A stretch of DNA of 64,000 nt from the NCBI GenBank assembly GCA_037893245.1, contig JBAIAA010000441.1, positions 62,001 to 126,000 on the forward strand. Direction: 5' to 3'. The translations under genes and the position numbers were made by a program. The notes under the pieces are model-generated. The model worked only from the letters and a program-made list of their open reading frames with translations. It ran no database searches and had not been told where the DNA came from. This document shows positions 4,834-54,957 of the stretch, piece by piece. The stretch is from Crossaster papposus. Its lineage: Eukaryota; Echinodermata; Asteroidea; Velatida; Solasteridae. The number at the start of each line of letters is the position of its first letter. The first letter of the stretch is position 1.

Positions 4834-5944
4834 CAAGCTAACTTGGGTCATAGATGCAATATTTAATCTAGCATAATATGGTAATACTAGGGTCAAAGGT
4901 CATGAGGTCAAGTTGTAAAATAGGGTAATTATGGACTTGTGGTTCGAGAACCATCTTTGTTTTTATATTCTGATGGTTGTATTGATGCGTAATCAACAAG
5001 ATTTCAACAAAGCGAAGCAATGTAAAATATTACGGGAGCCCTTGCGCAATGTAGTTTAACTGCATGTCGCAAGGCTCTTGTATTGTCATGTGATTGTCAT
5101 GTGTTAGCGAGTCGCCTCAACCGCCACAGATTAATCAATATAATTTTATATATATGCAACTATTTGTTAAACAATTTATATTGAATTTTAATGTTTAAAT
5201 TATATTTTAATTTAGAATTTTAATTGTTTTGTCTTTTTGCATGTTAAATATTTTTAATGAATTGATTAACTATAATTAAAATCATAAACTAAAATTAGTT
5301 TGGAGCAATTTTTGTATTTTCTTTTGAAACTTTATTTTTATTTTAGACTTAAATGGATAGACCAACATAATAGGGTCTTTTTGAATCTCTGGCTTGGTTT
5401 CATCTTTGGCTTAAGGCGATTTTAGGCTTCCAACTGCCGGAACTCCAGCTATAGGTTTTGGCGCCTGTTGTGCTTCAGAAACACTCAATCGGTTAATATT
5501 ATATTTAAAAGTTTGAATATTTCCATGTGCTTACGATTTTTATTTGCTTGTCTGCGATTCAGTTGTCGGTGGCGAAGCCGAGACGAAGCAAAGGCTTGGA
5601 AAACACCCATACTGTTTATTGAATACGGCCATGTTGCATCCCTCAATATTGCTGCAGCATGGGTTTAAGTAACCAGTTCGCGCCGGGATTATTTCGAAAT
5701 TGACCGATCAGAGATGGATTCAGGCCGGCATCTGTGGGCAGCACACCCCGATATTTCAGGCCTTGTGGTTTATATATCCGTGGAATCGGCCTTTGTGCTT
5801 TTGGAAACAAACAAAATGCAGAAATTAAAATAGCGATGTCGCGTCGGTTGGTTGGGTTTCCCCTTGCGTGTATGTATAATTGATGAGTTTAATAATTGCA
5901 TGCGCATAGCAATAGTAAACACACAATAATAGAACCATATTCGC
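4834..5944. other. Intergenic, AT-rich; no gene recognised
   Basis: A very AT-rich block lies at about 5120-5350. Position 5671 carries a partial end of the CCAGTTCGCGCCGG TTAA-element family (TAACCAGTTCGCGCCGGG). No exon of a known protein is visible. Confidence 0.4.
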
Positions 5945-6279
5945 AGGGTCGCTGCATTTTATTTAGAGGCTATTAACTTTAACAATTAACTTTTTAGGTA
6001 GTTATAATTCATTGGTTATGTATACATGAATAAATAACGACCAGCCTGCGATGTAAAATATTATAAGCTAGATTATTTCATCTGCGCTACAGCACAAACC
6101 CCATAAAACAATCCATACAAAATTAATTTCAACAGTGTTCCAAAATAAATATTGTTTGTCTCTGAAGTAATACTTTCAAAGCAATGTCTTTTTGGCTATG
6201 CATTTTACTACAATAGTCGGACAATTATTTAAAAAGTATTTTTTTTACAATCGTACCAGTTTACCTTGAAATCTTGTGT

Positions 6280-6302
6280 GGGGGGGGGGGGGGGGGGGGG
6301 GG
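6280..6302 (+). repeat. Poly-G tract (23 G)
   Basis: This is an uninterrupted G run upstream of gene 1. Long G or C runs recur through the window, for example at 15703, 20016, 20060, 30264, 55353 and 56554. Confidence 0.9.
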
Positions 6303-6660
6303 TGGTTCTGTGTGTTTACTGCCCGAAATAATTTAGCATGCGATATTTTGAAACAAAAAATCGATCTGTTGAAGCATGTAATGAAAAATGTATGCAAAAC
6401 ACGGGCATGTTCGATGCAAAACAAAAGGCCTTCAACTCCAGATAATAATTCGTCTGCATAATTTGAAATAATTTATGGGCCTAATTTATATGGGATGACA
6501 TTTTTAATAATGCTATATAATTAAAACAGCCTTGAAATTACCATCGCTTTAACAACTTCCATATCATACATAATATGCTATATAAATTGCATTATCGCAA
6601 TAGCCTCTTTGGTCCGAACCTGGTCGGATATTGCCTAGTCGATTAGCGGTTTCTTTAGCC

Positions 6661-9600
6661 ATGCTTCCGACGGTCTTGGTGTGTTTGCTGCTAGCTAGCG
6701 GGGTGAGCGGTAATTGGGAAGACAAGAGCCACGACCCGGACAACACGCACCTGGTAAATATACCCATGTACATGTAGTAAACTTTACCCCAATGGCTATT
6801 TCTGTCGCACATGAAGCAAGACATAAGACGGGAGAATCCCCCCTCCCCCTCCCCCACTCCCCTCTCTTCCCCTTCTCCCCCACTCCTCTGTGGTGGTCAT
6901 TGTGCTTGCGAAATGTTTTGGTTTCTCAGGAAATGGTTTTATGTTTTTAGGGGGGTGTGCGTTCGGTAATAGTAGTCTAGAGAGTGTATGGGTATGGGAG
7001 ACTAAGGGGGGAGTCCGTCGGTCCTATCTCTTGCTGGGTATATCCTGTTAAGTCCGTCACAAGACCCGTCACATGATCAAAAACCACCTCCCCCCAAAAA
7101 GCCAGCACTGAGTCGGGCAGAATTGTGTACTGGCATTAATCAATTGAGTTATAAAATTATGGAAACTTGGCACACAGTCATAGCATAATATGTCGTGATG
7201 AAGATATTTGACGAAGGGGCCAGGGTTGAATTGTCGGTCCATTGGCGATGTGTGCTGCAAATAAAAACACTGCTGTCGGCGTGTAGTATACTTTTTCCGC
7301 TGTGACCCTAGCCTTTTGACAAGGCCTCGTGACTCTGGCTAAGCGGCTGAGATGAGTCTAGATACCCGGGGTGAACGCGCGACCGAGTGACGAATGTCAC
7401 GAGGCCTTTTGCAATGTAGGTTTCACTGCTCGGCATGAATTATTCATAGTACATATTAGCATGTCAATACGCCCAATCAGAACGGCGATCTCCCAGTTGG
7501 CTTCGTTCGTGATTCGTTCAATATCAAAGCATGTAAGAAAAGGTAAAAAAACCGTAAATAAATGTTGCTTCTGAGTTGAATATATGAATGATAAATACAA
7601 GATATCACATTTAAATCTATTTTACATGCAAAATTTCAATAAATTAGGAAGCAACTAATGATTTGAGCTAAATATTGTAAGTGACATGATTGGACATTCC
7701 CTGTTTGTAAAATGAACTAATCCAACTCAAATATAAGCTGACGTCACGCAGAGATACGTTCGCTGATTGGACGCTACCATATAGGTAGCGATTCAAGTTG
7801 GAAACAAAGGTTAACATAAGAAATCCAAACCAGATTGATAAAGGCCACTTGTCTGGGCAATTCGCACTGACGTCACTCAGGTTTTCGCGATTAGTCTCTT
7901 TTTAGTCGCTCGGCGTCTATCAGACATGTGGCCTTGTTTAAAGGCTACTGTGACCCGGGTTCGAATCCCGCCTGGGCCAATACGTGGATCGGGTTTTCAG
8001 TCCCAGTCAGTTTCCCTAAAATATAATTCTGAGGTTCCCCCCCCCCCCCCCCACCTTTAAAGCTGTGAATATCTTCTACCAAAGGACCCAACTGGAAATA
8101 AGTCGTAAGAATTTCGTGGGTCATCCCGGTAAATTGCCAAATAAATCAAGGTCCAAACTATAATAATTATTTGTATCCATCCACAGGGGTTTAAATTATA
8201 CAACCTCGAGTGCAACGCCGATGGAACGTCATGCTTCAAATCGTACAAAATGAACATATATGGATCAGAGGTTCAACGTACGTATACTATTTAGGGCATA
8301 ACAGGGTGAAGGCCCGGTCATTACTGCGTGATAACGCACCGGGTTGGGGGATGACCACTGGTAATGGACCGAGCCGAACTTAGTTCTATTACCAGCGGTC
8401 ACCCCAACCCGTCCGTTACCACGCAGTGAATGACCGGGTCCTCACCCAATTCCCTTTAATAAATACCTTTTTTGTTTAGGGAGTAAACAGTGAATTTGCC
8501 CCAATTTTGTTAAGCCTGGGTCATTACTTACAAAAAAATGCCCTCCACGTGGTCGAGTCTCGACCAATCAGAAGCTATCAAGGACTCGACTGAAAACACC
8601 ACTCTCCAAAAGAGTGAGTACGTACTAGAATAATGCAAAAATCTCACATTTTCCAGAAAACTTCACATATAACAAGAGCCCTAGTGAGGTGTCCTTGACT
8701 GGGCATGCAGAATGGGGCGACGCGGCGATGAGCCTAAATCAAGGTAAGGGAACACATTTATAGACGTACCCTAGACGTACATATGGACGTACATTAGTGA
8801 TAGTTGCTCAACAAAGTTTGTGTATAGACCTACTGTTTACTCTTGTATACCGCCCTCTTTTGACCGCACTGGGTGAAACTTCAACACGGCCATCTTGGAA
8901 ATGCACACGCACACAAATTGTCTTAAGTTCTGTGTCGGTTATTCATTGCATTACCCGATTGTGACAACAATTATAATTTAATTTGCACTCTCGGACCTAG
9001 AAGCATATTTTCCTTCATCCGAAATTTGCTTTACCAAAAAGCATATGTTTAAAGCAAAATTAGGGAGCTCATGTTTTTTGAGGTACATTTGGGGTACAAG
9101 GTGCACCCGGGTGGCAATAATTTTTCCTGCAGGTAGGTTGGTACATAGCGTACATCTATTAGCCAATCAGGTACATAGTGTACATCTATTAGCCAATCAG
9201 AACACAGATGGTGTTGAAGTCATCGATGATGTTAGACTTGTCTGGGATCTGACTAGGGTTAGGGGTTAGGGGTTAGGGGTTAGGGGTTAGGGGTTAGGGT
9301 TAGGGTTAGGGTTAGGGTTAGGGGTTAGGGTTAGGGTTGTTCCAGACAACTCTAACATCATCGATGGCGTCAACACCATCTGTGTTCTAATTGGCTAATG
9401 TACTAACCTACCTGCAGAAAAAATTAACGCACCCGGGTGGCAAGGTAATACTGAGGCCTCGTAATTATAACTTTTCACTTTAATATGATAATTTATGTAA
9501 ATGGGGCCGTTGAGGCGGAAGTGAATTGCGGTCCCATGGAAAATGTGAAGGGCTGGGTCCAAAGTCTATTGTTCTTGTCGTTTCCCAGAGAACGAGGAAC

Positions 9601-9869
9601 AGTTTCGCATTTGCTATGAATACGAGCTCTTCCATGACTTGAACAACGTACCACCACAGGACAACCACAAGGTGATGAAGTGTCTGGAAAACTCCTTTGA
9701 AGGGATTACCGTGCCGCCCGAGTGCGTCAGGCCTGTCGCCTTGAAAACAGTCTACATCCAGTCTGGCGACAGTGAAATGCGAGGAGCGCAAGTGCTGTAC
9801 TGCGCAGGCGTTGAAAAGGTTGACAAGGGGCTGAAAGGATTACCGTCAAAAGCTATAAATAAGGCATGA
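6661..9869 (+). CDS. Unknown secreted six-cysteine protein, copy 1 (183 aa)
   Basis: I do not recognise this family. Four exons join in phase: 6661-6753 (93 nt), 8187-8277 (91), 8657-8743 (87) and 9589-9869 (281), with intron phases 0, 1 and 1. Donors are GTAAAT, GTACGT and GTAAGG; acceptors are CCACAG, TTCCAG and CCCAG. The same four exons stay open in two neighbouring copies, which strongly supports the model. Residues 1-17 (MLPTVLVCLLLASGVSG) form a signal peptide with the mature start near NWED. The mature part has six cysteines (ECNADGTSC, RICYEYE, MKCLEN, PPECV, LYCAG), suggesting three disulfides, and one N-glycosylation site (NFT) in exon 3. There is no membrane segment. An extracellular or body-fluid role is inferred. 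The introns hold a SINE shared by all copies plus copy-specific transposons. Confidence 0.85.
7309..7947. mobile_element. 639-bp DNA transposon with 9-bp target duplication
   Basis: Flanks are CTGTGACCC at 7300-7308 and again at 7948-7956. The ends are inverted: TAGCCTTTTGACAAGGCC at the left, and the right end reads TAGCCTTTAAACAAGGCC in reverse complement. Units 2 and 3 have the uninterrupted sequence (CCGCTGTGACCCGGGTTCG near 12662 and 15606), so the insertion came after the duplication. It lies in a SINE within intron 1 of gene 1. No transposase is present. The 9-bp duplication would suit Mutator-like or Merlin-like elements; the superfamily is not settled. Confidence 0.9.
7957..8070 (+). 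mobile_element. SINE remnant in intron 1 of copy 1
   Basis: GGGTTCGAATCCCGCCTGG (B box) is followed by a GGATCGGGTTTTCAGTCCC-type body. The same SINE is at the matching place in copies 2 (12640-12800) and 3 (15580-15780), so it predates the triplication. Its head was split by the 7309-7947 insertion. Its poly-C run, 8037-8052, is 16 C. Confidence 0.8.
8290..8460. mobile_element. Palindromic element in intron 2 of copies 1 and 2
   Basis: ACAGGGTGAAGGCCCGGTCATT at the left is mirrored by AATGACCGGGTCCTCACCC at the right, with inner arms GATAACG and CGTTACCACGC and a central GGTGACC-like core. A shortened relative is at 13005-13130 in unit 2. Unit 3 has unrelated sequence here, so the insertion may predate the split of units 1 and 2, or intron 2 of unit 3 may have been replaced. 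Confidence 0.7.
9117..9429. mobile_element. Foldback element with TTAGGG-type core, copy 1
   Basis: The arms are inverted repeats of about 100 bp. The left arm has CCTGCAGGTAGGTTGGTAC, ATTAGCCAATCAGAACACAG and CATCGATGATGTTAGA. The right arm has CTAACATCATCGATGG, TTCTAATTGGCTAAT and CCTACCTGCAG. Between them, about 9252-9338, is an array of TTAGGG and TTAGGGG. Flanks are direct repeats GCACCCGGGTGGCA at 9103-9116 and 9430-9443. Units 2 and 3 lack it (near 13700 and 17090). It lies in intron 3 of gene 1. A related element is at 11429-11804 in the opposite core orientation. Confidence 0.88.
9252..9338 (+). repeat. Interstitial telomere-like array (TTAGGG/TTAGGGG)
   Basis: About 13 units of mixed TTAGGG and TTAGGGG form the loop of the foldback element around it. 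TTAGGG is the usual animal telomere repeat. The array lies inside a gene intron, so it is interstitial and carried by the element. Confidence 0.9.
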
Positions 9870-10110
9870 CGTAATGGGTTTTTGTTTGGAACGTGTAGTC
9901 TCGCTTCAAGATGTTTAATATTTGAAAATCGGTAAGTTTGTTCTACATGAAAATGTGCCCGGCGGTATGCGCACGCATCGTGTTTTGCATAAAGTGTGGT
10001 TTAGGAGTGACGTCACAGGTCAGATCGCCTTTGAATTATGTGACCTTTCTGTACTTCTTAACCAAAGTGAATTTGTGCAAAACACGATTCGTGCATATAG
10101 GCCTACACGT

Positions 10111-10911
10111 CGTCACCGTTTTCACGAAGAGGCGAATTTCATGAAAAATCGTCTATTTATCGAAATTATTTTTTTTGATGAAAACGATTAAATATTGCAA
10201 TTTCTACAACCTGGTGAAGTTATACATCCACAAAATCATTAAAATCACAATTAACCTAATTAACTAATGGGCGAATTGGTCCTCAAGTGCCCTTTTGCGT
10301 TTTCACGAAGAGGCAAATTCGAAATAGCGTTGACTTCAACGTGTTTATGAAGGGCACTTTGGTGCGCGTAGTCACTTTAGCGTTTTCACGAAGAGGCGAA
10401 TTGGGCGAATTGGTCGCGAAGTGGCTTTTAGCGTTTTCACGAAGAGGCAAATTCGAAATAGCGTTGACTTCAACGTGTTTATGAAGGGCACTTTGGTGCG
10501 CTTAGTCACTTTAGCGTTTTCACGAAGAGGCGAATTGGGCGAATTGGTCGCGAAGTGGCTTTTATCGTTTTCACGAAGAGACAAATTGGGGGCGCAATGG
10601 GAAAATGTATACATTCTGACTCTCACAGCCACGGGCGAATTTGCTAATGTATCGTTTTTTTCGTTTTCACGAAGAGGCAATTCTATTAATTGATTAATTC
10701 TGCAAAACTAATCACCTATTTTTCTTAACGTTTGCTATATTTAAGAAGATTGAAATCTCTTCTTTCCCATGATACCTTAATCTTGTATATTCTATGAATA
10801 TTTATGTTTCAAACTGCCAAACGAAAAAAGGACAAACTTTACAAGCGATTATCTCGAAAGTTTGTTCAGACCGTGAAAGGCTCAATTTGCCTCTTCGTGA
10901 AAACGGTGACG
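10111..10911. mobile_element. 801-bp element, 4-bp (ACGT) duplication, internal minisatellite
   Basis: The left end, CGTCACCGTTTTCACGAAGA, is the reverse complement of the right end, TCTTCGTGAAAACGGTGACG at 10892-10911 (within TTGCCTCTTCGTG...). The flanks are ACGT at 10107-10110 and 10912-10915. In unit 2 the same place reads GCACACACACGTATGTGCC (14353-14371) with a single ACGT, the empty site. Inside, 10292-10680, the terminal motif CGTTTTCACGAAGAGGC recurs six or more times in a repeat of about 130-bp units. No transposase ORF is visible. It lies in the 3' flank of gene 1. Confidence 0.88.
10292..10680 (+). repeat. Minisatellite built on the element's own terminal motif
   Basis: GCGTTTTCACGAAGAGGC appears near 10297, 10379, 10430, 10513, 10564 and 10661. 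Longer blocks (AAATTCGAAATAGCGTTGAC and the GGGCACTTTGGTGCGC part) occur twice, about 134 bp apart. ORFs on both strands here reflect the repeat and are not genes. Confidence 0.85.
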
Positions 10912-11428
10912 ACGTATGTGTCACCGTGAGCGACTCACGCACTGCAACATTGGTTTCATGCTTGATACGGATTTGTGTTCCATTTTTCTTAGAATGTACA
11001 CGATGAAATACCTAAAGTAGCATACTTTTAGAAAATTTATAATCTGACTCTGAAAAAACACGAAATGGTATTGCATAGATATTCTTTATTTTATGTTATC
11101 AGAGATTTCGTGTTATTATTTGTTTAGATTTTATGGAAAACGATTCACCGACGGCAGTCAACATTTTATTTAGCCTACATTTTATTTAGAGGAAATTAAA
11201 GGAAACATGTAGGGCCTACTAAGTTGTTTTCGGCTTAAATCAATAAAGTTTAATGTGGACAGCAACATTATGTGTGTGGTTGTGTTTATTTTCTGTAATA
11301 TATTTTCTGTAATGTTCTGTGTGTTTACTGCGCGAAAGAATTTAGCATTCGAGGTTTTGAAACAAAAAAATCGATCGGTTGAAGCAAAAATGTATACAAA
11401 ACACGACGCGTGCGCATTACGCCGGGCA

Positions 11429-11609
11429 GCGATAATTTATTTCTGCAGGTAGGTTGGTACATTAGCCAATCAGAACACAGATGGTGTTGACGTTATCGAT
11501 GATGTTAGAGTTGTTATTATTATTATTATTATTATTTTATTCATGGGACAACCCTAACCCTAACCCCTAACCCTAACCCCTAACCCTAACCCCTAACCCT
11601 AACCCTAAC

Positions 11610-11640
<31 letters not shown>

Positions 11641-11804
11641 CCCTAACCCTAACCCTAACCCTAACCCTAACCCTAACCCTAACCCCTAACCCTAGTCAGA
11701 TCCCAGACAAGTCTAACATCATCGATGACTTCAACACCATCTTTGTTCTGATTGGCTAATAATTGTACACTATGTACCAACCTACCTGCAGAACAAATTA
11801 TCGC
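11429..11804. mobile_element. Foldback element with TTAGGG-type core, copy 2
   Basis: The ends are GCGATAATTTATTTCTGCAGG and, in reverse complement, GGCGATAATTTGTTCTGCAGG. The arms match those at 9117-9429. The flank CGCCGGGCA is at 11420-11428 and 11805-11813, a 9-bp duplication. Unit 1 at the equivalent place (about 6405) reads AACACGGGCATGTTCGATGC without the element. An ATT microsatellite (11514-11537) and a CCCTAA/CCCCTAA array (11550-11695) fill the loop. Confidence 0.88.
11550..11695 (-). repeat. Interstitial telomere-like array (CCCTAA/CCCCTAA)
   Basis: About 23 units of CCCTAA with scattered CCCCTAA form the loop of the foldback element. The array is longer than that in the sister element, 146 against 87 bp, and reads in the opposite direction. 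Confidence 0.9.
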
Positions 11805-12083
11805 CGCCGGGCATGTTCGACGTAAAACAAAAGGCCTTCAACTACAGATAATAATTCGTCTGCATATTTGAAATAATTTATGGGCCTATAATTTATATGG
11901 GATGAGATTTTTAATAATGCTATATAATTAAAACAGCTTTGAAATTACCATCACTTTAATAACTAGCTCCATATCATACATAATATGCTACGTGGTTTGC
12001 TTTATCGCATTAGCCTGTTTGGTCCCAACTTGGGCGGATAATAGGCCTATATAGTCGATTGGCGGTTTGTTTAATCTGTAGCG

Positions 12084-14136
12084 ATGCTTCCGATGGTCTT
12101 AGCGTGTTTGCTGCTAGCCAGCGGAGTGAGCGGTAATTGGGAAGACAAGAGCCACTCTCCGGACAACTCGCACCTGGTAAATATACATGTACTAAACTTT
12201 ACCCCAATGGCTATTTCTGTCGCACATGAAGCATGAATTGGGACGGGGAGAACCCCCCTTCCCCTTCTTTGGTCATTGTGCTTGCGGAATGTTGTGGTTT
12301 CTCAGGAATTCTTTTTAGGTTTTTAGGTGGGTGTGCGTTCGGTAATAGTAGTCTAGACAGTGTATGGGTATGGGAGACTAAGGGAGGAGTCCGCCTGCCC
12401 TATCTCTTGCTGGGTATATCCTGTCAAGTCCGTCACAAGACCCGTCAATCAAAAACCACCCCAAAATAGCCAGCACTGAGTCGGGCAGATTTGTGTAAGC
12501 ATTACTCAATTGAATTAAAAAATTATGGAAACTTGGTACACAGTCATAGCATGCATCGTGATGAAGATATTTGGCGATCGCTGAATTGTCGGTCCATTGG
12601 CGATGTGTGCTGCAAATCAAAAACCCTGCGGTCGGCGTGTAATATACTTTTCCGCCTTCTACCGCTGTGACCCGGGTTCGAATCCCGCCTGGACCAATAC
12701 GTGGATCGGGTTCAGTTCCGAGTCTGTGGGTTTTCTCTCAAAAGTAATTCTGAGATTTTCCCCCACCTCTAAAGCTGTAATATCTTCTACTAATGGACCC
12801 AACTGGAAATAAGTCGTAGGAATTTCGTGGGTCATCCCGGTATATTGCCAAATTGCCAAAAGTCCAAACTATAACAATTATTTTTCCCCAACAGGGGTTT
12901 ATAATGTACAACCTCGAGTGCAACGCCGATGGAACGTCATGCTTCAATTCGTACCAAGTGAACATGTGGGGATCAGAGGTTCAACGTACGTATACTATTT
13001 AGGGCATAACAGGGTGAAGAGTGGACCCGGTCATTACTGCGTGATAACGGACAGGGGGATGACCGCTGGTAATGGACCGCGAGCCGAATTATCACGCAGT
13101 GAATGACCGGGTCCTCACCCTGCTGATCTCTTTAATAAATACCTTTTTGTTTAGGGAATAAACAGTGAGTTTGCTCCAATTTGTTTAAGCCTGGGCCATT
13201 ACTACAAAATAATGCCCTCTACGTGATCGAGTATCGACCAATCAGAAGCCACCAAGGACTGAAAACACCACTCTCCAAAAGAGTGAGTACCTAGAATAAT
13301 ACAAAAATCTCACATTTTCCAGAAAACTTCACATATAACAAGAGCCCCAGTGAGTTGTTCTTGTCTGCGCATGGAGAATTGGGTGACGTGGCGATGAGCC
13401 TAATACAAGGTAATGGAACTAATTTATAAACGTATAATAGTAATAGTTGCTTAACAAAGTTTGTGTAGACCTACTGTTACTCTTGTATACCGCCCTCTGT
13501 TGACCGCACTGGGTGAAACTTCAACACGGCCATCTTGGAAATGCATACACACACAAATGATCTTCAGTTTGGTGTCGGTTATTCATTGCATTACCCGATC
13601 GTGACAACAATAATATAATTCATTTTGCATTTCCTTCATCAACATTTGCTTTACCCCTATGTTTAAAGCAAATTTAGTAGGGCGCTCACGTTATTTGGGG
13701 TACATCCAAGGTTACTGAGGTAGGCCTCGTAATTATACCTTTTCACTCTTATAGGATAATTTATGTAAATGAGGTGGTTTAGGCGGAAGTGAATTGCAGT
13801 CCTATTGAAAATGTGCCGGGTCCAAACTCCAAAGTCTATTTTGGTTCTTGTCATTTCCCAGAGAACGAGGAACAGGTTCGCGTTTGCGTTGGGTATGAGC
13901 TCTTCTATGACTTGAATAACGTCCAGGGCTACCGCAAGATGCGGAAGTGCCTGGAAAACACCTTCGAAGGGATTACCGTGCCGCCCGAGTGCGTCAAGCC
14001 TGTCGCCTTGAAAACAGTCTACATCGAGGCCGGCGACCATGAAATGCGAGGAGCGGAGGTGCTGTTCTGCGCAGGCGTTGAAAAGGTTGACAAGGAGCTG
14101 AAAGGATTGCCGTCAAAATCTATAATTAATGCATGA
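12084..14136 (+). CDS. Unknown secreted six-cysteine protein, copy 2 (181 aa)
   Basis: Exons are 12084-12176, 12895-12985, 13323-13409 and 13862-14136, with the same phases (0, 1, 1) as copy 1 and no stop or frameshift. The signal peptide is MLPMVLACLLLASGVSG. The six mature cysteines and the NFT glycosylation site are kept. Exons 2 and 3 differ most from copy 1: KSYKMNIYGSEV becomes NSYQVNMWGSEV and SEVSLTGHAEWGDAA becomes SELFLSAHGELGDVA. The second half of exon 4 is almost unchanged (EGITVPPECV, PVALKTVYI). The exon 3 donor is GTAATG instead of GTAAGG, still a usable GT. Function is unknown. Confidence 0.85.
12640..12800 (+). mobile_element. SINE remnant in intron 1 of copy 2
   Basis: The sequence GCTGTGACCCGGGTTCGAAT, with the B box, and the body are homologous to 7957-8070 and 15580-15780. 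This copy shows the uninterrupted target of the 7309-7947 transposon. The poly-C run here, 12760-12764, is only 5 C. Confidence 0.8.
13005..13130. mobile_element. Shortened palindromic element in intron 2 of copy 2
   Basis: This is a relative of 8290-8460, keeping both ends (ACAGGGTGAAG and AATGACCGGGTCCTCACCC) but with a smaller centre. Confidence 0.65.
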
Positions 14137-15028
14137 CGTAATGGGCTTTTGTTTGGAACGTGTAGTCTCCCTTTAAGATTATGAAAATCAGTAAGTTTGT
14201 TCTATATGAGAATGTGCCCGGCGGTATGCGCACGCATCGTGTTTTGCACAAAGTGTGGTCTAGGAGTGACGTCGCAGGTCAGATCGCCTTTGAATGATGT
14301 GACCTTTGATGTACTTCTTAACCAAAATGAATTTGTGCAAAACACGATTCGTGCACACACACGTATGTGCCACCGTGAGCGACTCACGCACTACAACATT
14401 GGTTTCATGCTTGATACGGATTTTGTGTTCCATTTTTCTTAGAATGTACACGATGAAACACCTAAATTAGCATATTTTTAGAAAGTTTATACATGTACTT
14501 TGACTCTGAACAAAAATGAAATGGCAATGTAATTGATATTCTTTATTTTATGTTATCAGAGATTTTGTTTTATTATTTGTTCGGATTTTGTGGAAAACGA
14601 ATCACCGACAGCAGTCAACATTTTATTTAGCCTATACATTTTATTTAGAGGCAATTAAATTTAACAATTAACTTTTTAATAGTTATAATTCACTGGTTGT
14701 GTATACATGAATAAATAACGATCAGCCTGCAATGTAAAATATTATAAGCTAGATTATTTCATCTGCGCTACAGCACAAACCCCTTCAACTCCAGATAATA
14801 CAAATTCGTCTGCATATTTAAAAGAATTGATGGGCCTAATTTATATGAGATGAGTTTTGTATAATGCTATATAATTCAAACTGTCTGGAAATTACCATCA
14901 CTTTAACAACATCCATGTCATACATAATATGCAATGTGGTTTGCTTCATCGCATTAGCCTCTTTGGTTCCAACTTGGGCGGATTAATAGGCCTATATAGT
15001 CGATTGGCGGTTTGTTTAATCTGTAGCG

Positions 15029-15701
15029 ATGCTTCCGACGGTCTTGGTGTGTTTGCTGCTAGCTGGCGGGGTGAGCGGCAATTGGGAAGACAAGAGCCAC
15101 TCCCCGGACAACTCGCACCTGGTAAATATACATGTACTAAACTTTACCCTAATGGTTATTATTTTCTGTCGCATTTAAAGCAAGAAATGGGACGGGGAGA
15201 CTCCCCTTCTTTGGTCATTGTGCTTGCGGAATGTTGTGGTTTCTCAGGAATTCTGTTTAGGTTTGTAGGGTGGTGTGCGTTCGGTAATAGTAGTCTAGAC
15301 AGTGTATGGGTATGGGAAACTAAGGGAGGAGTCCGCCTGTCCTATCTCTTGCTGGGTATATCCTGTCAAGTCCGTCACAAGACCCGTCACTCAAAAACCA
15401 CCCCCAAAAGCCAGCACTGAGTCGGGCAGAATTGTGTAAGCATTACTCAATTGAATCATAAAATTATGGAAACTTGGCACACAGTTATAGCCTATATATG
15501 TCGTGATGAAGATATTTTGCGATCGCTGAAATGTCGGTCTATTGCCGATGTGTGCTGCAACTCAAAAATTCTGCGGTCGGCGTGTAGTATACTTTTTCGC
15601 CTTCTACCGCTGTGACCCGGGTTCGAATCCCGCCTGGACCAATACGTGGATCGGGTTCAGTCCCGAGTCTGTGGGTTTTCCCTAAAATATAATTCTGAGG
15701 T

Positions 15702-15742
<41 letters not shown>

Positions 15743-17524
15743 ACCTTTGAAGCGGTTAATATCTTCTACCAAAAGATCCAACTAGAAATAAGTCGTAAGA
15801 ATTTCGTGGGTCATTCCGGTAAATTGCCAAATAAATTAGGGTCCAAACTATAACAATATTTTTCCCCACAGGGTTTTAACTTTTACAACCTTGAATGCAA
15901 CGCCGATGGAACGTCATGCTTCAAATCCTACACATTGACCATGGGCCTAATCGGAAGAGAGATTCGTGCGTATATACTGTTTTGCATTTCATTTTATTCT
16001 TGTTTGCTCTGGGTATAAAGTTGGCTCAATAACGTATAGCCTTTATTCACGCTTTGTACGTATTAAATGCGCCGTATTTTGGGCCACATGAGGGCGCTGT
16101 AAGACGCCATTTTCTGGAAGTAGTTTATTGAAGTAGTTTTAGTAACTTTACTTTTATCTAAAGATTGATTATTAGAAAAAAAATATGTTGGAGCTGTAAG
16201 AATATTTAAACTGACGTGAATTATCTTCTAATCTCTTTTAATAATACCCCCAAATACCGTGAAAACAGCGCCCTCTACGTTCAATATTCAATATACGGCC
16301 TATTGAAATCGAGGTAAACTCTTCAGTTTTGAAATTTTTGAAAAGAAACAATTGCATTAAAATACAAGTTACTTGCAAATTATCTAACACCAGTGTTATT
16401 TGTTGAATAGCCTACACTTTAACAAACTCCTGAGTCAGATTTGACCCGGAAAAGCATCGAAATCTCTAGTCTTTTTCCGAGTCAAATATGACATTTTCGG
16501 GGTCCAAATTATCTAGAAACAAGTCAATTTGACCCGGAAACGTGTCATTTTCAACCCAAGAAGTGTCATTTCGACCAGGAAAAGGACCGTGTGCAGATTT
16601 TGATGCTTTTCCGAGTCAATCTCCAAAAGAGTGAGTAGGCACTACCTAGAATAATAAAAAAAAATAACATTTTCCAGAAAACGTCACATATAAGAAGAGC
16701 CCTAGTGAGTTGTCCTTGACTGAGCATGCAGAATGGGGTGACGTGGCGATGAACCTAAAACAAGGTAAGGGAACTAATTGATAAACGTACATTAGTTATA
16801 GTTACTTAACAAAGTTTGTGTAGACCTACTGTTACTCTTGTATACCGCCCTCTGTTGACCGCACTGGGTGAAACTTCAACACGGCCATCTTGGAAATGCA
16901 CACGCACACAAATTATCTTTAGTTCTGTGTCGGTTATTTATTGCATTACCCGATCGTGATAACAAATTATAATTCAATTCGCACTATCGGACCACGAAGC
17001 ATTTCCTTCACCAACATTTGCTTTACCTGAAAGCATATGTTTAAAGCAAATTTAGTAGGGCGCTCACGTTATTTGGGGTACATCCAAGGTTACTAAAGTA
17101 GGCGTCATAATTATAGCTTTTCACTCTAATATGATAATTTATGTAAATGAGGCCGTTTAGGCGGAAGTGAATTGCAGTCCCATTGAAAATGTGCAGGGCC
17201 GGGTCTAAACTTCAAAGTCTTTGTTCTTGTCATTTCCTAGAGAACGAGGAACAGGTTCGCATTTGCGTTGAATACGAGCTCTTCTACGACTTGAATAACG
17301 TCCAAGACTACCGCAAGATGAAGAAGTGTCTAGAAAACACCTTCGAGGGGATTACCGTGCCGCCCGAATGCGTCACGCCTGTCGCCTTGAAAACAGTCTA
17401 CATCCAGTCTGGCGACAGTGAAATGCGAGGAGCGGAAGTGTTGTACTGCGCAGGCGTTGAAAAGGTTGACAAGGTTGACAAGGGGCCGAAAGGATTACCG
17501 TCAAAAGCTATAATTAATGCATGA
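15029..17524 (+). CDS. Unknown secreted six-cysteine protein, copy 3 (185 aa)
   Basis: Exons are 15029-15121, 15872-15965, 16678-16764 and 17241-17524, phases 0, 1 and 1. Exon 2 is one codon longer than in the other copies and its end is quite different (SYTLTMGLIGREI in place of SYKMNIYGSEV), with donor GTGCGT. The signal peptide is MLPTVLVCLLLAGGVSG. The glycosylation site is NVT. Six mature cysteines are kept. Exon 4 contains a 9-bp tandem duplication giving VDKVDK. Exon 4 is closest to copy 1 in its last third (QSGDSEMRGAEVLYCAG). The protein is unrecognised; it is presumably secreted, with function unknown. Confidence 0.85.
15580..15780 (+). mobile_element. SINE remnant with 40-C run in intron 1 of copy 3
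   Basis: This is the same SINE as in copies 1 and 2. Its internal C run, 15703-15742, is 40 C, against 16 and 5 in the paralogues. Confidence 0.85.
15985..16615. other. Unit-3-specific intron 2 sequence
   Basis: This stretch replaces the intron 2 sequence shared by copies 1 and 2. GTCAAATTTGACCCGGAAAAG-type motifs (TTGACCCGGAAA, TTTTCCGAGTCAA) recur at about 16437-16620 on both strands. No ORF of note. Whether it is an insertion or a replacement cannot be told from this window alone. Confidence 0.5.
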
Positions 17525-18123
17525 CGTAATGGGTTTTTGTTTGGAACGTGTAGTCTCGCTTCAAAAAGTTTAATATTTGAGTAATATTTGAGTAATCGGT
17601 AAGTTTGTTCTATATAAAATGTGCCCGGCGTTATGCGCACGCGTCGTGTTTTGCACAAAGTGTGGTTAAATAGTGACGTCGCAGGTCAGATCGCCTTTTA
17701 ATTATGTGACCTTTGATGGGTACTTCTTAACCAAAATGAATTTGTGAAAAACAAAATGTGTGCACGTACATACACGTACACGCAAGCGGCTCACGCACTA
17801 CAACATTGGTTTCATGCATGCTTGATACGGACTTGTGTTCCATTTTCTTAGAATGTGCACGATGAAAATACCTAGAGTAGCATACATTTAGAAAGTTTAT
17901 ACTCTGACTCTGAGGGAAAAAAACCCCGAAATGGCATTGTATAGATATTATTTATTTTATGTTATCAGAGACTTCGTTTTATTATTTGTTTGGATTTTGT
18001 GGAAAACGATTCACCGACAACAGTACGTCAAGAACCCATGCGTACAGAATGAGAAAGAATTTTATGTTGCTCAATATATTTACCATAGAGTCCGAACACA
18101 AGGGTAGTGTGGTTAATATGTTC

Positions 18124-18480
18124 CTTAAAGGTAGGATACACTATTGGCAGATATCAAAAATATTTACTACCAAATTATTAAGAAATATCTTACTCATTTG
18201 AAAGTAAATAATGATTCTACGCATCCAGCATTTTTTTTGCACTAGATATCCTGTAATTATTGAGAAAAATTGAATTTTATAAAATCAAATCGCGAAAAAA
18301 CGGGTGGGAGGGGGGTTGAAGTCAAATAAATTCGCACGTCAAAATTTTTCGCACGGACACAAAATTTCGCAGTCCAAAAAGCACTATAGTCAATGTTTTA
18401 TGAGTAGTTTTACTATCATTGATATTTGAAACTAAGAAAAACGCAATTTTTACCTTAAAAAAAAAAAAAAAAAAAAAAAA
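18124..18480 (+). mobile_element. Truncated TTAA element, family A (AGGTAGGATACACC)
   Basis: The left end CTTAAAGGTAGGATACACTA and the following CAGATATC...ACTACCAAATTATTAAGAAATATC match the left halves of the complete copies at 26442, 39033 and 60000. The right part runs into an A-tract (about 18455-18480) and no matching right end is seen. Confidence 0.75.
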
Positions 18481-18561
18481 AGATTTTCAAAGGGGGGGCG
18501 TTCGCAACCGTCGCCCCCCCATCTGACGGGCCTGGCCAGGTAGTGTAGTTAATATGTTTCT

Positions 18562-18836
18562 TTAACATCCGTAGTACCGGCAACGGGCGTCGCCTTCCCT
18601 CAGGCACAGCACGGCGCACTGGACCCGTGTCAACCCGGAGTAGCTTCCAATGGAGTGACCGGCCAACGCGCGGTGCTCTTGGGCCGCGTTCGACTTCGCC
18701 CTGCTACCGACAGGCTGAGGTACACACGACGGACGGTTGCTGCTAGTGCTACGCACGCCGCAATCGCCACCAATAAAATGCTGGCATATTTAAAGACCGA
18801 CAACCCTCCAAAAACCCATTTCTCCCTGGTTCCCAA
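18562..18836 (-). pseudogene. Possible PAN/apple-like exon with a frame break
   Basis: Reading minus, one frame begins MGTREKWVFGG and has a hydrophobic stretch (SILLVAIAACVALAA) that could be a signal or anchor. The adjacent frame holds RALAGHSIGSYSG, then C..LC, then ARCRYYGC and a stop. This spacing resembles a PAN/apple domain start (LxGH...CxxxCLxxxxC). The two useful parts are in different frames. A GTACTA site within CRYY could be a donor, leaving an incomplete exon. It may be a broken gene, a fragment of a multi-exon gene, or chance. I see no further exon on the minus side. Confidence 0.3.
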
Positions 18837-18989
18837 ACGTGGCTGTTATCAATGAATGTAGACTTATGCAATATAGATTTGGGAACAGTAATGACGCATG
18901 ACTTTATCGGGGTACAGTGACGGACGCATACACGAAAACATCTTAACAAGCAAGTGAAAATATTCGTTTTTACTCTAGCGTTCATCCTA

Positions 18990-21470
18990 CGCGCAGTGTT
19001 GACATGACGATAACCGTACGGTTTACCATTAACCTCTCTCTATAATCAGAATAGATGGGAAGTTACTAAAAACTAACCAGTGTAGCGTTCTTGTTCTTGA
19101 ATTATCAAGATACTAAATTCGGTGCAAATTCGGGAAATCGTACGCCAAATTTAATTTATTTTTAACGACTGTATGCACTTATCAATTGCCAAACGAAAAT
19201 AAACCAATGTATCTTTAATTTACAAATTAATATGCACATTTCGTGATATCGTCCGGGGAAATCTACATTAAATTGTGATGAGTTTAATATTGAAAATCGA
19301 TGCGCACAGCAGAATCAGTTCGTTTAGCTTACACTTGTATGCAAATGTCACACGCGACCGTTTGATTAGCCACCATTTTATCCTCGCGCCTGCCCTGGGG
19401 CCATTTTCATAAAACCGGTAAGCAACAAACCCCCCCCCCCCCCCCAGGATTCTGATGCTAAGCAAATGTTTGTGCTTACATGTTTTATGAAATTGGTTGC
19501 CTATAGCCACTATTGACCCAGCTCACGAGCGGGTGTCTAGGTGTGCACTACCCTAATTGAAGGGAACATTTCTACCCGAGCTCATTAGCATGAAATGTGC
19601 CCCCCCCCCCCCACTATATATTTTTTAATATAGTGGGGTTGTGTTAATATAGCCTAGGATCAACTCCCTGTTATTTTTTAGCTTCAATCTGAGGGCAGAG
19701 TTGTTAAAATTACGGTTGCAAAATGGGTCCTAATTGCCCTAGAACGTGGAGGGATGCCATTTGTAAAATGGCTGCTTGCAGGATCGGGAAGTATCACTTT
19801 TGGGAGGTGAGTTTGTTTTGGTGTGAATATTAAACAATGTAATTGGTTAACCCACTAAAAATAGAAAGGAATGAAAAGATAAAGACCAAGACAATAATCT
19901 GATTGTTGTTTGAGACGTTACCAGGACAATTAAATTTAAAAAAAGATACAAATTACGGGGAAATTGATACAAAGATAGTATATCCCCTAACATTTGACTA
20001 AAGGGGGGTGGGGTTGGGGGGGGGGGGGGGGGGGGGGGGGGGGTTCCACATGTAGTACACCCCCCCCCCCCCCCCCCCCCCTCCTATACGCATAATGCCA
20101 GAAAGAACATTTTTCTAACAGGCTACCTAATAATTAATTCGAAAATGATTATATAAAATGTGTTTTAAATGTTAAAACAAGGCTCATAACTTCAAATATT
20201 GGTATTTAACCAGAACAATGAATAACATCGCTCCCTAGTCTACAAGGTTAGCGAAACGTGAAGCTGCATATTACTTGTGCATTATTAAAGACATCCTTGT
20301 ACGGCTGCGGTCTGCGATCGCTACGTCAAGGCCAGGTAGTGTGGTTAATATGATCCTTTAACATCCCCACTGCACGGGCAGGAAACCATGTCTCGCTTGA
20401 TCGCCTATGCAGATATTTACTTCGGTGTGGCTAATTACACTGAAACCACCGCACGTAAACAAATTAGTTAATTGGTGGGGAAGGCCACCAGCCAATTCTT
20501 AGACTTTGAGTTTCACGCGTCATTAAACAAAATAACTAATTACATGTACGCGCATATACTAAACTGATGAATCGACATTATAAGTGTGCAGTCAGTGACT
20601 ACTCGTGAAAAGTTAAAAGTCCAAACATAAAACTGATAGTCTAAATTCAATACTCGATGTGTTTAATTTACCAGTTTAATGGTTCAAATCCCATCTTTTA
20701 AAGAGAAGTCATTGACATGACCGCACACTTATAACGGCCTTCCGTACGTATGTACCTTATCATGTGATCACACGGCACCACTTCTCTATAGCTAGATTAC
20801 GCACTTTGACACTATCTGATATTCATAAATACCTGGGACATTTTAGGCATTCCTATTGGTCGAGAGCCCGTCACGTGGCCGGTATTAAACGGACGATAAA
20901 GACATGGCTGGAAGTGTTTAAAACCAGCTGGCAACAATTTGAACAAAGGTTCAATGACGTCGATGCCGTCTTTGCTAACTGCTCATTCAATGGCAACGTC
21001 GTCGTCAACTTAAAACACTGACACATGACACTTAGCAAAAATTTGCCAATATTTATCGATGATTTGGTCCAAAAATGAGTGTATTTTGCCAATCAGTTGT
21101 GAGCAAGTGTATGTACGTCGCGTGTGTAGACGTACTGTCCCACGATCGCGCATTATACCCGTCCCCAGTGCTCACTTTATTTCCAACCGTACCTCGTCTC
21201 CAATAGTAAGAGCGGGTAGTGTTGAGCGCGTACAGCTCGACACCCTATGAACGAGGTTGCCAATGGCAGTAATAGTCTGGTTCATAGTAAATACGCTTTA
21301 TTGCATGTATTATGTAGAGCGACAGAGGCGGAAACATGTCATTTGACACACACAGAATGGCGAAACACCGAAAATTACTTGCGACAATTTTCCGTAATTT
21401 TCGGGGCTTTTGGGGCTGAATTTTACAAAAAAGTATTTATGAATGGGAAACAAATTGTGTTCAGTCGGTA
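18990..21470. other. Intergenic sequence with repeat fragments
   Basis: A partial GGGCCAATTTC-family MITE lies at 19395-19500, interrupted by a C run. A near-palindrome of 28 G (20016-20043) and 22 C (20060-20081) is separated by 16 bp. A 36-bp motif with GGTAGTGTGGTTAATATG (about 20333) also occurs near 18103 and 18540. No conserved ORF is recognised. Confidence 0.5.
20016..20081. repeat. G28 / C22 inverted homopolymer pair
   Basis: A G run at 20016-20043 faces a C run at 20060-20081 across TTCCACATGTAGTACA. It could form a G:C hairpin or, on one strand, a four-stranded G structure. Exact run lengths should be treated with caution because such tracts are hard to sequence. Confidence 0.8.
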
Positions 21471-21593: not shown

Positions 21594-24058
21594 ACACACA
21601 TTTATTCCCTTAGTAAAACGAACTTGGCGCAACGTACGTTGTGGCAACATAATGTTTTAGCTGGGGGAGAGGGGGCGGGGTGTATATGTTCAACTCACAT
21701 TTCTGTATATATTTTTGTCAGTACTTACTTGGTACTTGGTTGGTCGGTTTTCTCTTGAAAATATCCTCTTTGGGAAATTAGGCTATAGTAGGAGATCGGC
21801 TGACGACCAGGTAGGTAATTCTGCTCACAGCCGGAGACTGGTGCAGCTGTAGTTTAACAGAACTGCAGTCTTAATTCTCTTGAGCAATATCGTTTGCTTG
21901 AACGCACAAGTTCAGCCGACCAATCCTCTTCATCATAGCGTTTAGGTGACCAATCAGCACGAGTCAGAGAGCTGTCGCTGAACCGTCATGCGTGCGGTGA
22001 ATTTCCCACGAAAAGACCTTATACGTGTCCAAAGAGTCAATTGACGGTTGAATATTGTGCCCAAAATGTCTAAGGGTATAAGAAAACAGCGCTACGACCA
22101 TGTTATATTTTACATAGCGTTACTTAGGAGAATAAACTTAAACGAACTCACCGTATGTAACTTTAACGTTTATTGTCAACTACAGACTGCCATCTTAGAA
22201 CTCGCTTATAGTTTTATCCCGTGTAGTTCATGTCATTAGAAATGTAAAAACAAAAATACCTTAACTGTTTTCATTTCCTCGTAATTTTTTCGAATACGTC
22301 ATATTTTGTGTGCGTCTTATTTTGTGACGGACTTGTTATAAATCTTTAATTTAAACTCGGAAACTTGTAACCAATCATAACACGCCCGCGGCGCGTGCCC
22401 GTGAGCGATCTCTTTATTTTTGTCCGACGAATTTCCCATCATGCACCTTGGAATTCAAGATGGCGACCTCCGGGGTGTCAGTGTGCAATGATCGTCCGGC
22501 GTGACGTGGCTTTGCAAAGTTAATCGTGAATTTCACCTTTTGATCAAGCTTAAAATTCGAACAACTACCTGAAGTTGATTTGTTTTTATGAGTCATACTA
22601 GATCTCGCTGATTTACGGTTGACTTTGCATTTGATGTTTTGTCGGCTGTAACACGAAGTGAAACAGCTCTGAGCTGAAATTGCGCATCCTTGTGTAAATG
22701 GTCCGTGATAAAACAAAGTGTACATGGTCTATCGTATAATTGTATATTCACCCATACCATAGCCCAGGTTGGACTCCTCCGTTGTGTATAACGCGACGGA
22801 GTCCAGGGTATCAATGTATCCTGCCATAGCGTAAAGTTTTACAACAACTTTTTTTTCATATTTTTACCTGATGAAGGAAGCCGAAATCTCGCTTATGTCC
22901 TCCTTGTATCTGGAATTACAGATCGTCATAGGTTATTAAAAGTTAATGTGTCTTTGAGCTACTTATTTACAGAAAATAAATTCACGCTTTTGGACGTGAA
23001 CATCATGTACGAATTTCCGACGTGCGTGCGCGGGTACCCGGCGTGCACGCGCAAGGCCGGCTCATCGGTCGTAGGCCGTTAGAAAGTCAAAATGCTTCTA
23101 TTTAAACCACAATTAATTTCCTGGGTTGAAATTTTGACCCGAAATACCCTATATTATACCTTAACCAACCACTAAACCTAAGCCACACCCCACCCTAATT
23201 TTTGAGTAATTTGAGTAAAATTCATAAATCTATTTCGTGAAAATTCTTGTGGACACCTTTTTATCTATACTGAAATTAACCTGTGAAGACCTTATGAGTC
23301 CCATTGTCCCCATTGTGTTCAGGTCCCCACAGGGTACCGAATTTAGAAACAAAATGCCTAATGTAAGTTGGAGTCTTTGATGGGACCGGCTAATTGCGAG
23401 TTCTTTTCACATCAGAGCGGATGGATAGGCTCTTCAAATCCTTTTACCTCAGTCAGACGTAAAATTCTCCCGGAGTTTACAAACCATACCTATTTCCTTG
23501 CGAACGAAATCGGCGGAAATGGACTTTCTTCCTTTTGTGTTTGGTTTGTTCAACAATAGAGGTTGATGGTTCAACTTGAAACGTAAACAAAAACGGTTGA
23601 ACGACCTGGAGGCCACTTCGCATGCGTTCCAATCATTGACCTCGTGACCCCAAGCGCCATTGGTCAATCCGGTTCGTTTAGGTCACGTCACTTCAACTTG
23701 AACCGCGAGTACAACGTGTATACATACAAACGAAGCCAATGAAACCACACACCGTTTTCTAAACCCTAGCTACGTCCACGTGCGGCTTCGTTCATGCAAA
23801 ATAAAAAATGGTGATGGACTGGTGATGGAGCCTGAGATGGACCTAAGCTGGGGTTTGGAAAACGGTCTAGTTAACACGCTTTTAGTTAATGCTGGTTTGG
23901 CCAATGAGCGCTTGTAATATAAGTGGCGCGTGCGCGTGTACGACGAAGTCACTTTAACAGGATTAGGTAGGTATGCACGCGCCGAGAGTGACAGTCTTAA
24001 AACTGGTTGCACACTTTGGACACACGTGCATAATACGAAAGGACATTGTATAGCAAGG
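21594..24058. other. Region upstream of the GABA-B receptor gene
   Basis: No coding exon is recognised. It should include the promoter and 5' UTR of the gene starting at 24059. TAATATAAGTGG at about 23915 is a TATA-like candidate, but this is inference only. A dispersed repeat at 23090-23310 (TTCTATTTAAACCAC, ACCCTATATTATACC, TTCTTGTGGACACC) recurs at 25495-25735 in intron 1. Confidence 0.45.
23090..23310 (+). repeat. Dispersed repeat, copy 1 of 2
   Basis: The sequence is homologous over about 220 bp to 25495-25735 (shared CCTGGGTT, ACCCTATATTATACC, AAATCTATTTCGT, AATTCTTGTGGA, GACTCCCATTGTCCCC-type blocks). The class is not known; no terminal repeats were seen. Confidence 0.7.
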
Positions 24059-27000
24059 ATGGTGACTGCCCACGGACAACTCCCCTTCGCACTCACCACG
24101 ACCCTCGCCTTCTTGTCTCTCATCACCACGGGGGCCTCGTGCCTCACCAACGTCACCCTGGGTGGCCTGTTCAGCTTCGGGGGTGCTGGAAGTGGGACGG
24201 ACTGGGACGGCGGTGCGATCCTGCAGGCCACGCTGATGGCTCTGCAACACGTGAACGGGGACCCTACCGTGTTACCGAGATACCGCCTGTCGCTGGACGT
24301 TAAAAATTCTAAGGTAAGATTTGTTGATGTACAATATATATCATATTCCGTTTCTAAAATAGCGTCACGGTCGCAACATTATTGGCAGATTGGGGGTAGG
24401 AATAAAAATGTGCCTTGGCCGGTTTAAATCAAGCAATTTGATAAAAATGGCCCAAATGGTAAAAATGTCATGCGCACATGTGCCGTCGGGGCTTAACTAT
24501 AGAATGCAGGGCCCATGCAGGACCCACTGACAAATCAAGGTTTTATTTACCCTATGACATATAATGGAGTGGCCCTGTATTATATGGGTATTGGGGTTAT
24601 AGGGTTAGTCCATTCTATGTCCTAGGGTAAATAAAGTCGAGAGTTGTCAGTGGGCCCTGCATTCTATAATTGCTCCCATGAGACTAGAGGTTCCAGCCGT
24701 CAGTCGCTAGGCAGCGGATGTAATTCATATTCAACAACAATGCATAATATTGAATAATACAATACACGAGTGAAAATTATGAATTGAAAATCATTTGCCT
24801 GGCTATCGCCTATCGGCCACCATGGCCGGTTTGGAGCTGAAACCGAAAACATTTTGTACAAAACCTTACGTATGCACATGCCAACAGACTATTATGAGTA
24901 CGGGGCGGGTAATTCTGAACAAATATCCGATAAATTCAGCAAAATGATAACGAACTTCAGGCGGAGAGAGCTACCAATCCACACACACTCCCATTGCTTT
25001 TCTAAGGAAATAAATTTATGTTTAAAGGGATCGTATACGTTTGGTAATTGGAACCCGCTGTTTGTTTTAACCCTATATAGTTATAGATATATACCATAAA
25101 ACTAACCTGTAAAAAAATCATTTCAAAAGGTGGCCGCAATTTTGAGATATTGCCGAAAATCTGGAGCGGTTATGTCAACGCAGGAAGAATAATCTGCATT
25201 GGAATACACAATCTGAGAAAGGGCACTGCATTAACGCTTCTCAGATTTAAATTGTTGGGGATAAAAAGTGATATCTTTTCCATAACCGCAGTACTTCGAA
25301 GTGAAAAGTTTCTAAAAATGCATTATACTATCCAAAGATGCGGTACTTCTTAGCAAGTAAGTTTGCATTTACATTAATTTTTGGAGTAATTACCAAACGT
25401 ATACGATCCCTTTAAGTTCTGTGGAGAAAATACACACATCGTACCCCCATATTCCATTTTGTTCTCTTTGCTCTCGTGTACAAAATGGTTAAAAAGTCGA
25501 GCACCTTTTAAAAAATGCTCCTATTTCAACCACAAATAACTTCCTGGGTTAAAGTTTTCACCCAATATACCCTATATTATACCCTAACCCAAACACTAAC
25601 CCTAACCCACATCCTAACACTAGTTTGAGTAAAATTCAAAAATCTATTTCGTAAAAATTCTTGTGGAGACCTATTTATCTATAGAAATTACCCTCCTTTT
25701 GACTCCCATTGTCCCCATTTACAATTGAATCATCAATAAAAAAATGTATCCGCCCATCTTTTTCTGGACTTGACATTCCGAAAAAGCCAATTTGTCGGAA
25801 GAAATTTCCAGCATGACCTTGCTAACGAGATCTCACGACCAATGAAACTATTGGCGCATTTACCATTAAATTAATGGAGTGCGCTCGGGCAGTGGACATA
25901 ATGTGCATTTTTGCCCGCGTCTCGTAGTTTATTTATTTTCACTAATGGACGAGTAACAAAAAAGGAATCTGCAAATGGGTTTTTTGTTTTCCGAGAAAAC
26001 AATTCGAAAAGTTCTTAAAAAGCATTTTAAATGCTTTTAAAGGTAATGTATACCATTTGCAAAAAAAATCATCGTGCTCTGGTTTTCAAGAAACGTTTGT
26101 AGCAATTTCCAACGATTGCCGCCGGCAATCGTTGGAGAAACTCTGCACCCAATTTATTAAATTCAGTTAGTCCACATTTTTATTTGCAATAATGGTTACA
26201 CGCCCGTGTATGGGTGCAAGCCAAGTAGTCTGTTTTCCTAAACCTGATCATTCCCTGACGTGTATAAATTGCTGTTTCGTCTGAAGGAAGTCAAGAAACC
26301 AGACTAGAACAATATACAAAACAAATCTTGATTTTTCCAGCATCATGAACCACGACATGTTATTACATTATTTCCTATAATATATATATCCCCTAACTCA
26401 TCTTTTTTCGAAAATTGCAACAAAAGCAAATGGTGTATTAAAGGTAGGATACAATATTTGCAGATATCTTTTACCCAAACAAAATCCAACTAAATTATTA
26501 AGAAATATCTTACTTATTTGAAAGTAAATAATGATTCTAGACATTCAGCAAAATGATTGCGCAAGATATCCTGTAATTGTTCTGAATTTGTTTTTTTATA
26601 AACATTTTATACACAATTATACGGCGATCGCGAAAAAAACCAAGAACAACATAAAAACTACTTCCTGACGCCGGATGAAAACAAACGCCGTTTTTCTTAT
26701 TTTCTCAGCATCCATGATTGTAAAACTTCGGACGGGTCAGTTAAAAAACAATATTTACTATAAAATACAACCCCCCAAATTCCCCCAAATTCAGCCATTC
26801 ATGATAATTCAAGCATACCATTACCAATGGTGTATCCCACCTTTAACCACCTTTAACGTGAATGTAGGAAGCACCTGTGTTACGTTTCACGTGCTATTCA
26901 CTGCCTTGTTTAACCTTGGACAAAATACTCATATGCGACAGTAGTAAATATTGAATTATTATTTTTCTTAACAAATTTAAAATTCCTAGCTGCCAGACAG

Positions 27001-54212: not shown

Positions 54213-54957
54213 TTGGACGTATAGTCATCTGCTTCTACCTGTTTGTTTCAACTTTGTTGGGTGTTACACTCCGTTTTATACAGGGGAGCAGAATGATTGG
54301 CGCCACCAACGTTGGAAGTTATCCCATGTCCCTCTGTTTGCCTTGTCCACTATTAAGAAAGGGGTGTGCAAAATACTGACTTAAGAAATACCCTTTTAGA
54401 ATTAAACTCGGAACTCTTTCTTGTTTCTGCAAACGTTTGTTGCATACCAAGTTCGTTATTCAAGTCTAAAAAAAAAAACATTCTACAAAAGAATTGGCTT
54501 TTGTTCGTTCCGTTTGCAGTAAATCAGCAGTGAATCCTACAACCGCGTTATTGATGCACTTACTGTGTCCATGTAGTAGAATATTCAACGACACCCATTA
54601 TAATTCACCCCCCAAAATGATCTATTCCCTTTCAACACTTCGTTTTTCCCTTTAAATGAAATTCTAAGATCTCCGTAGTAGTTTAACGGAAACCCGTCAG
54701 TTCAACATGACGGGGCTTTTATTGGCCAAGAGTGGCGGGATTTTGCTTGATGGACAAAGCAAGCAAACGCACAAACAGCCTAGGGCTTCGCTCGGTCCAA
54801 CCGCCCAAAGTTATCCGCTGAACGAAACTGCGCTTTGAGCTCTGATTGGATTGAATTTTGTGAAGGTTGCCAGTTGATCCGCGGACCAGCTGCGCTGCGT
54901 GCAATTCATGGTACGCTACCTAGAATGCCGTGTGTTTCCTTCACATAATATTGGAGT
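54213..54957. other. Upstream flank of the GPCR gene
   Basis: Would contain its promoter. No clear site was chosen, and there is no other gene. Confidence 0.4.

Follow-up and report, generated by a model that had tools for sequence, protein, structure and literature searches.

What are the three adjacent genes for a small secreted cysteine-rich protein found near one end of the 64 kb window (the whole stretch of DNA analysed here), is each of them maintained, and do they belong to a wider family with a recognisable role? The sections below consider the structure of the trio, its relatives in the same genome and the rates at which these genes have changed, and weigh possible functions where the relevant evidence arises.

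Structure and maintenance of the tandem trio

Self-BLAST of positions 5000–19500 resolved 5955–18024 into three head-to-tail homologous units, agreeing with the three tandem copies that the first-pass annotation had placed at 5945–18020. Each unit contained one intact four-exon gene with GT/AG at all junctions and intron phases of 0, 1 and 1, so that the intact four-exon frames and identical phases also proposed there were recovered in all three genes. The units, exons and one divergent intron are as follows.

5955..11200 (+), tandem unit A, from self-BLAST blocks 5955–6102/14637–14783, 6402–7300/11808–12655 and 10912–11200/14361–14659
6661..6753 (+), gene A exon 1, signal peptide and start of the mature chain, ending in phase 0
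8187..8277 (+), gene A exon 2, Cys1, Cys2 and the putative variable loop, ending in phase 1
8657..8743 (+), gene A exon 3, NFT sequon, phase 1-1
9589..9869 (+), gene A exon 4, last four cysteines, tail and stop
11201..14659 (+), tandem unit B from self-BLAST, start approximate
12084..12176 (+), gene B exon 1
12895..12985 (+), gene B exon 2
13323..13409 (+), gene B exon 3
13862..14136 (+), gene B exon 4
14637..18024 (+), tandem unit C, from self-BLAST
15029..15121 (+), gene C exon 1
15872..15965 (+), gene C exon 2, 94 nt, 3' end unlike A and B
15966..16677 (+), gene C intron 2, largely without similarity to its counterpart in A and B
16678..16764 (+), gene C exon 3, NVT sequon
17241..17524 (+), gene C exon 4, tail with a three-residue insertion

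Inserts in introns 1 and 3 and downstream of the gene account for the greater length of unit A; they include telomere-like TTAGGG repeats within inverted repeats. At 9107–9437 (intron 3 of gene A) and 11437–11811 (3' of gene A), inverted-repeat arms flank (TTAGGG)n/(CCCTAA)n tracts, and both have the appearance of a mobile element that carries telomeric repeats. A separate 134-base tandem repeat (10268–10587; 2.4 copies, 95 %) is built around the motif CGTTTTCACGAAGAGGC. No fourth copy was found in the 64 kb window by tblastn, and protein searches of the genome returned only the last exons of these three genes on the 2.34 Mb contig that holds the window (C441, positions 62001–126000).

The encoded proteins are 183 (A), 181 (B) and 185 (C) amino acids long, with B and C sharing 78 and 82 % identity with A, respectively. 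All three begin with a hydrophobic leader ending in GVSG, with cleavage placed by eye, and each carries six mature cysteines and a single sequon (NFT in A and B, NVT in C), as counted with cleavage set at residue 17 and N-K-S-P left out. Initially, each copy had been read as having a signal peptide, six cysteines in the mature chain and one N-glycosylation site; all three features were thus found, the first of them by eye.

Intact frames had also been taken as an argument that all three copies are functional, and a test based on intron indels supported this. The absence of stops was the weaker evidence, as 11–32 % of simulated neutral lineages at 5–10 % divergence were likewise stop-free. From the indels in introns 1 and 3 whose length is not a multiple of three, 7.6 (A/B), 8.4 (A/C) and 3.8 (B/C) coding frameshifts were predicted, and none was observed (P0 of 0.0005, 0.0002 and 0.023, respectively, for pairs that are not independent). 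Every coding length change was in frame: two residues in exon 4 of A, three in the tail of C and a net one codon in exon 2 of C. That the intron indel rate predicts frameshifts and none was seen indicates selection to keep the frames of the trio, which neutral copies would hardly have retained.

The copies nonetheless have a mosaic history. For introns 1 and 3 the closest pair is B/C (91 and 93 %, respectively), yet in intron 2 it is A and B that match (93 %), with C at 47–53 % to either over a forced alignment; in C, exon 2 has 3 nt more than in A and B and a 3' end unrelated to theirs. That B and C are closest in the outer introns while C differs at the end of exon 2 and in intron 2 points to replacement of this segment, which may have occurred either in C or in the lineage of A and B.

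Relatives across the genome

Last-exon matches elsewhere in the genome ruled out a purely local family confined to the trio. Taken together, protein searches of the 1.02 Gb assembly with an E limit of 1 identified 36 places with a family last exon, spread over 15 contigs and arrayed on several of them, in keeping with the earlier suggestion that more copies might lie outside the array. These comprised seven each on C704 and C690, four on C95, three each on C441 and C211, two each on C1040 and C133, and one each on C89, C231, C268, C35, C206, C96, C195 and C955. As the search scores best candidates only, 36 is a lower bound; the later two of the genome searches gave no additional place. Three pairs of contigs may be alternative haplotypes, being 86–99 % (C690/C704), 95–99 % (C955/C195) and 88–94 % (C211/C1040, the least sure) identical over 0.9–5.5 kb; dropping one of each putative pair leaves about 26 places, a figure that is a judgement where 36 is a count. 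Exon 4 could be read in 33 of the 36 places, 32 of which retained all four of its cysteines, and it was identical in three copies on C704 and four on C690. A decayed member at C96:1634285-1634464 (minus strand) has an early stop and has lost two exon-4 cysteines, including the first, which is replaced. Five solo family-like copies of exon 1 lie on the minus strand of C704, opposite to the family genes, and three of them contain a stop (e.g. L031:7068-7160).

Twelve further gene models were built from fetched loci, giving 15 with the trio. All 15 have four exons in phases 0/1/1, but relatives' exons were chosen by expected phase and similar length, so that for these 12 the agreement is partly by construction and is evidence for the existence of similar open exons in the expected phases. 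GT/AG was present at all junctions in 14 models, the exception being an exon-2 acceptor without AG in C1040b. Six cysteines were invariant in all 15, the last three spaced Cys-x13-Cys-x25-Cys, and the invariant columns of the 15-row alignment were C40, C47, C99, C122, N125, P133, C136, P139, L160 and C162 (numbering of A). The fifth cysteine is preceded by VPxxC in 13 models, APxxC in C231 and IPxxC in C1040b. An extra cysteine at position 50, forming C-x2-C in exon 2, was present in all 12 relatives and in none of the three window genes. After the cut at residue 17, 11 of the 12 relatives had seven cysteines and C268 had nine, possibly including one in the signal peptide. About 20 residues follow the last cysteine in the trio, two in 10 of the 12 relatives and approximately five to nine in C231 and C35.

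Eight representatives shared only 25–37 % mutual identity. In the tree the three window genes grouped with full support, whilst deeper forks were weak and long branches met. All 15 proteins are acidic (pI 4.2–5.3, charge −7 to −16) with masses of 16–19 kDa, and beta strands were predicted for the family by Chou-Fasman only. Taken from sequence comparison, the trio would be a young tandem expansion within an old, fast-changing family scattered across the genome.

The first-pass annotation had called the family unrecognised, and this held for Pfam-A and NCBIfam (15 proteins), PHROGs (three proteins) and PDB profiles. For the 15 proteins, Pfam-A and NCBIfam gave single-member matches at chance level, the best being Polysacc_synt_2 (0.022) and blaVMB (0.038); the Pfam scan was run at E up to 10 with five weak families listed, and HMMER filters discard the majority of matches beyond about 0.1. 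Profile searches of PDB sequences returned weak matches only (PLK4, best at 0.27; PLA2G6, 0.62; Pandonodin, 2.1), and these and the Pfam and NCBIfam matches were taken as chance. So was the match of all three window proteins to phrog_34590, a family of unknown function, over about 25 residues (best E 0.012). Phage, viral and prokaryote collections yielded no relatives, with part of these searches using exon 4 of gene C only. A literature search that included six short family motif strings found no description of the family among the papers listed, nor is it described in the accessible portions of PMC13228809, PMC10448888, PMC9759900, PMC8467561, PMC6280359 or PMC5457136. The family may well already be among public echinoderm annotations as unnamed proteins, in which case it is less new.

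Rates of change and possible roles

Seven recent paralogue pairs displayed dN/dS of 0.47–1.07 (NG86, own script), with bootstrap intervals that included 1 in six of the seven; Biopython gave 0.43–0.80 for the three window pairs, in which dN (0.099–0.122) was about as high as intron divergence (0.07–0.18). By region, the seven pairs gave 0.32 for the signal peptide, 0.83 for residues 18–31, 0.29 for the exon-2 core, 2.03 for the exon-2 loop (49–61), 1.05 for exon 3, 0.47 and 0.55 for exon 4 and 1.24 for the tail. One loop thus looks hypervariable. As its limits were set post hoc, with four windows tried after the pattern had been seen, we treat as a lead rather than a result the dN/dS of 2.45 for residues 51–61 in five independent pairs (95 % interval 0.94–14.8; bootstrap share at or below 1, 0.036; Fisher versus rest, 0.062) and of 3.29 in seven non-independent pairs (0.001; Fisher 0.0015), against 0.74 and 0.60, respectively, for the rest of the mature chain. 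For residues 49–61 the five independent pairs gave 1.91 (0.107; Fisher 0.094), and omission of the window pair lowered the estimates to 2.10 for 51–61 (0.063; Fisher 0.13) and 1.55 for 49–61 (0.169; Fisher 0.23). Residues 62–80 carried no signal (0.91).

Weak constraint is also compatible with the values below 1 seen across most of the protein. Redundant secreted proteins with an ordinary role (e.g. digestive or mucus bulk) and a drifting copy number could yield dN/dS of 0.47–1.07 through relaxed constraint, and the decayed relative on C96 is what such drift might leave; we consider this unlikely, as frames have been kept despite the intron indel rate and the six cysteines are conserved in every one of the 15 models.

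Lineage-specific proteins of immunity, venom and gamete recognition have earlier come to light in expanded families of secreted cysteine proteins whose function was unknown. The fixed cysteines, the acidic secreted scaffold, the perhaps variable loop and the open frames in arrays led us to read the present family as binding or recognition proteins. Our preferred reading, held tentatively, is that they are soluble secreted binding proteins of coelomic fluid or mucus, in which a disulfide scaffold presents surfaces that recognise foreign or symbiont molecules. The six cysteines would form three disulfides holding a mostly beta-strand domain, and the stretch after the position of the third cysteine, at the end of exon 2, would be a surface loop that differs between copies. 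With an odd cysteine present in 11 of the 12 relatives, seven-cysteine members may be disulfide-linked dimers, and its absence from the window trio suggests that these would be monomeric. Diversification could have proceeded by duplication, segment replacement and loop substitution. Among roles, we would place defence first and conspecific or gamete signalling second, a ranking drawn from sequence features; nothing points to immunity in particular. The first-pass annotation had named immunity, reproduction or secretion as frequent companions of such local amplification, and one of these may apply here. The fuller proposal, of an unrecognised echinoderm recognition system with a fixed disulfide scaffold and one hypervariable loop, duplicated and segment-replaced, with dimeric seven-cysteine and monomeric six-cysteine branches, is improbable as a whole.

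Waterborne or gamete signalling proteins that diverge under sexual or species-recognition selection would share the fast divergence and secretion signal seen here, and ependymin-related proteins of the crown-of-thorns starfish are sex-biased and proposed as a conspecific signal in the part of PMC9759900 available. Starfish ependymin-related proteins are likewise secreted, expanded and fast-evolving (PMC9759900, PMC6280359, both in part), but none of the 15 family proteins had the Pfam ependymin model among the five weak families listed, and signalling seems possible though on the unlikely side. A role as TIMP-like matrix or protease-regulating proteins in connective-tissue remodelling would suit a secreted, multi-copy family, given that up to 45 TIMP and TIMP-like genes occur in some echinoderm species and that these, including tensilin, are similarly many-copy, secreted and cysteine-rich (PMC8467561, from the sections available). 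The hallmarks given in the same sections are an N-terminal C-x-C and 10–12 conserved cysteines; here the C-x-C is missing, the first conserved cysteine lies 22–25 residues into the mature chain, 14 of 15 proteins have six or seven mature cysteines and one has nine, and no TIMP/NTR model was among the Pfam matches of the 15, which makes this role distinctly unlikely.

Tandem genes for secreted cysteine proteins with dN/dS close to 1 are likewise a pattern of toxin families, and this is what the trio shares with secreted defensive toxins or venom components. No toxin family was included among the weak Pfam and PDB matches and there is no link to spines or glands, so that we regard such a role as very improbable. 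The crown-of-thorns spine protein oki.111.24 is also a secreted cysteine-rich orphan without a recognised domain, but by its description in the accessible portion of PMC10448888 it is set apart by 18 mature cysteines, compared with six or seven in 14 of 15 proteins here and nine in one. Sea urchin IL17 (35 genes) is another expanded secreted echinoderm family (PMC5457136, in the part available), and no IL17 was among the Pfam matches of the present family, a comparison made at Pfam level only. In a further comparison, all 15 family proteins are acidic and lack a net positive charge. Cationic antimicrobial peptides carry such a charge. The family is now mapped within a single genome, with gene models, a loop hypothesis open to testing and a natural experiment in cysteine loss (six versus seven), and expression and binding tests can target named genes.

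Other features of the window and assembly

The trio is neighboured by a zf-4CXXC_R1 gene at 1461–2265, which we take to be CDCA7-like. Inverted repeat arms about 27 kb apart (2509–2701 and 29807–29997) are 89–91 % complementary, and a 141-base tandem repeat at 30985–31758 (5.5 copies, 97 %) leaves two plus-strand frames open. Pieces of a class C receptor were detected as 7tm_3 at 46237–46692 and, below cut-off, ANF_receptor at 23918–24424, and a single open frame on the minus strand at 52983–54224 encodes a rhodopsin-type receptor (Pfam 7tm_1, E 4e-30). Elsewhere in the assembly, contig C1841 (16,330 bases) carries mitochondrial cox1 in which AAA is read as Asn (table 9) and TGA as Trp; the AAA-encoded Asn residues presumably fall at conserved Asn positions. 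Echinoderms and flatworms share table 9, and the cox1 protein resembles that of echinoderms, from which the animal is very probably an echinoderm. On contig C8 (over 5.2 Mb), cox1 frames at 5208663–5210009 and 2872001–2873343 are open under the standard code, and this contig is probably from a bacterial symbiont or contaminant.
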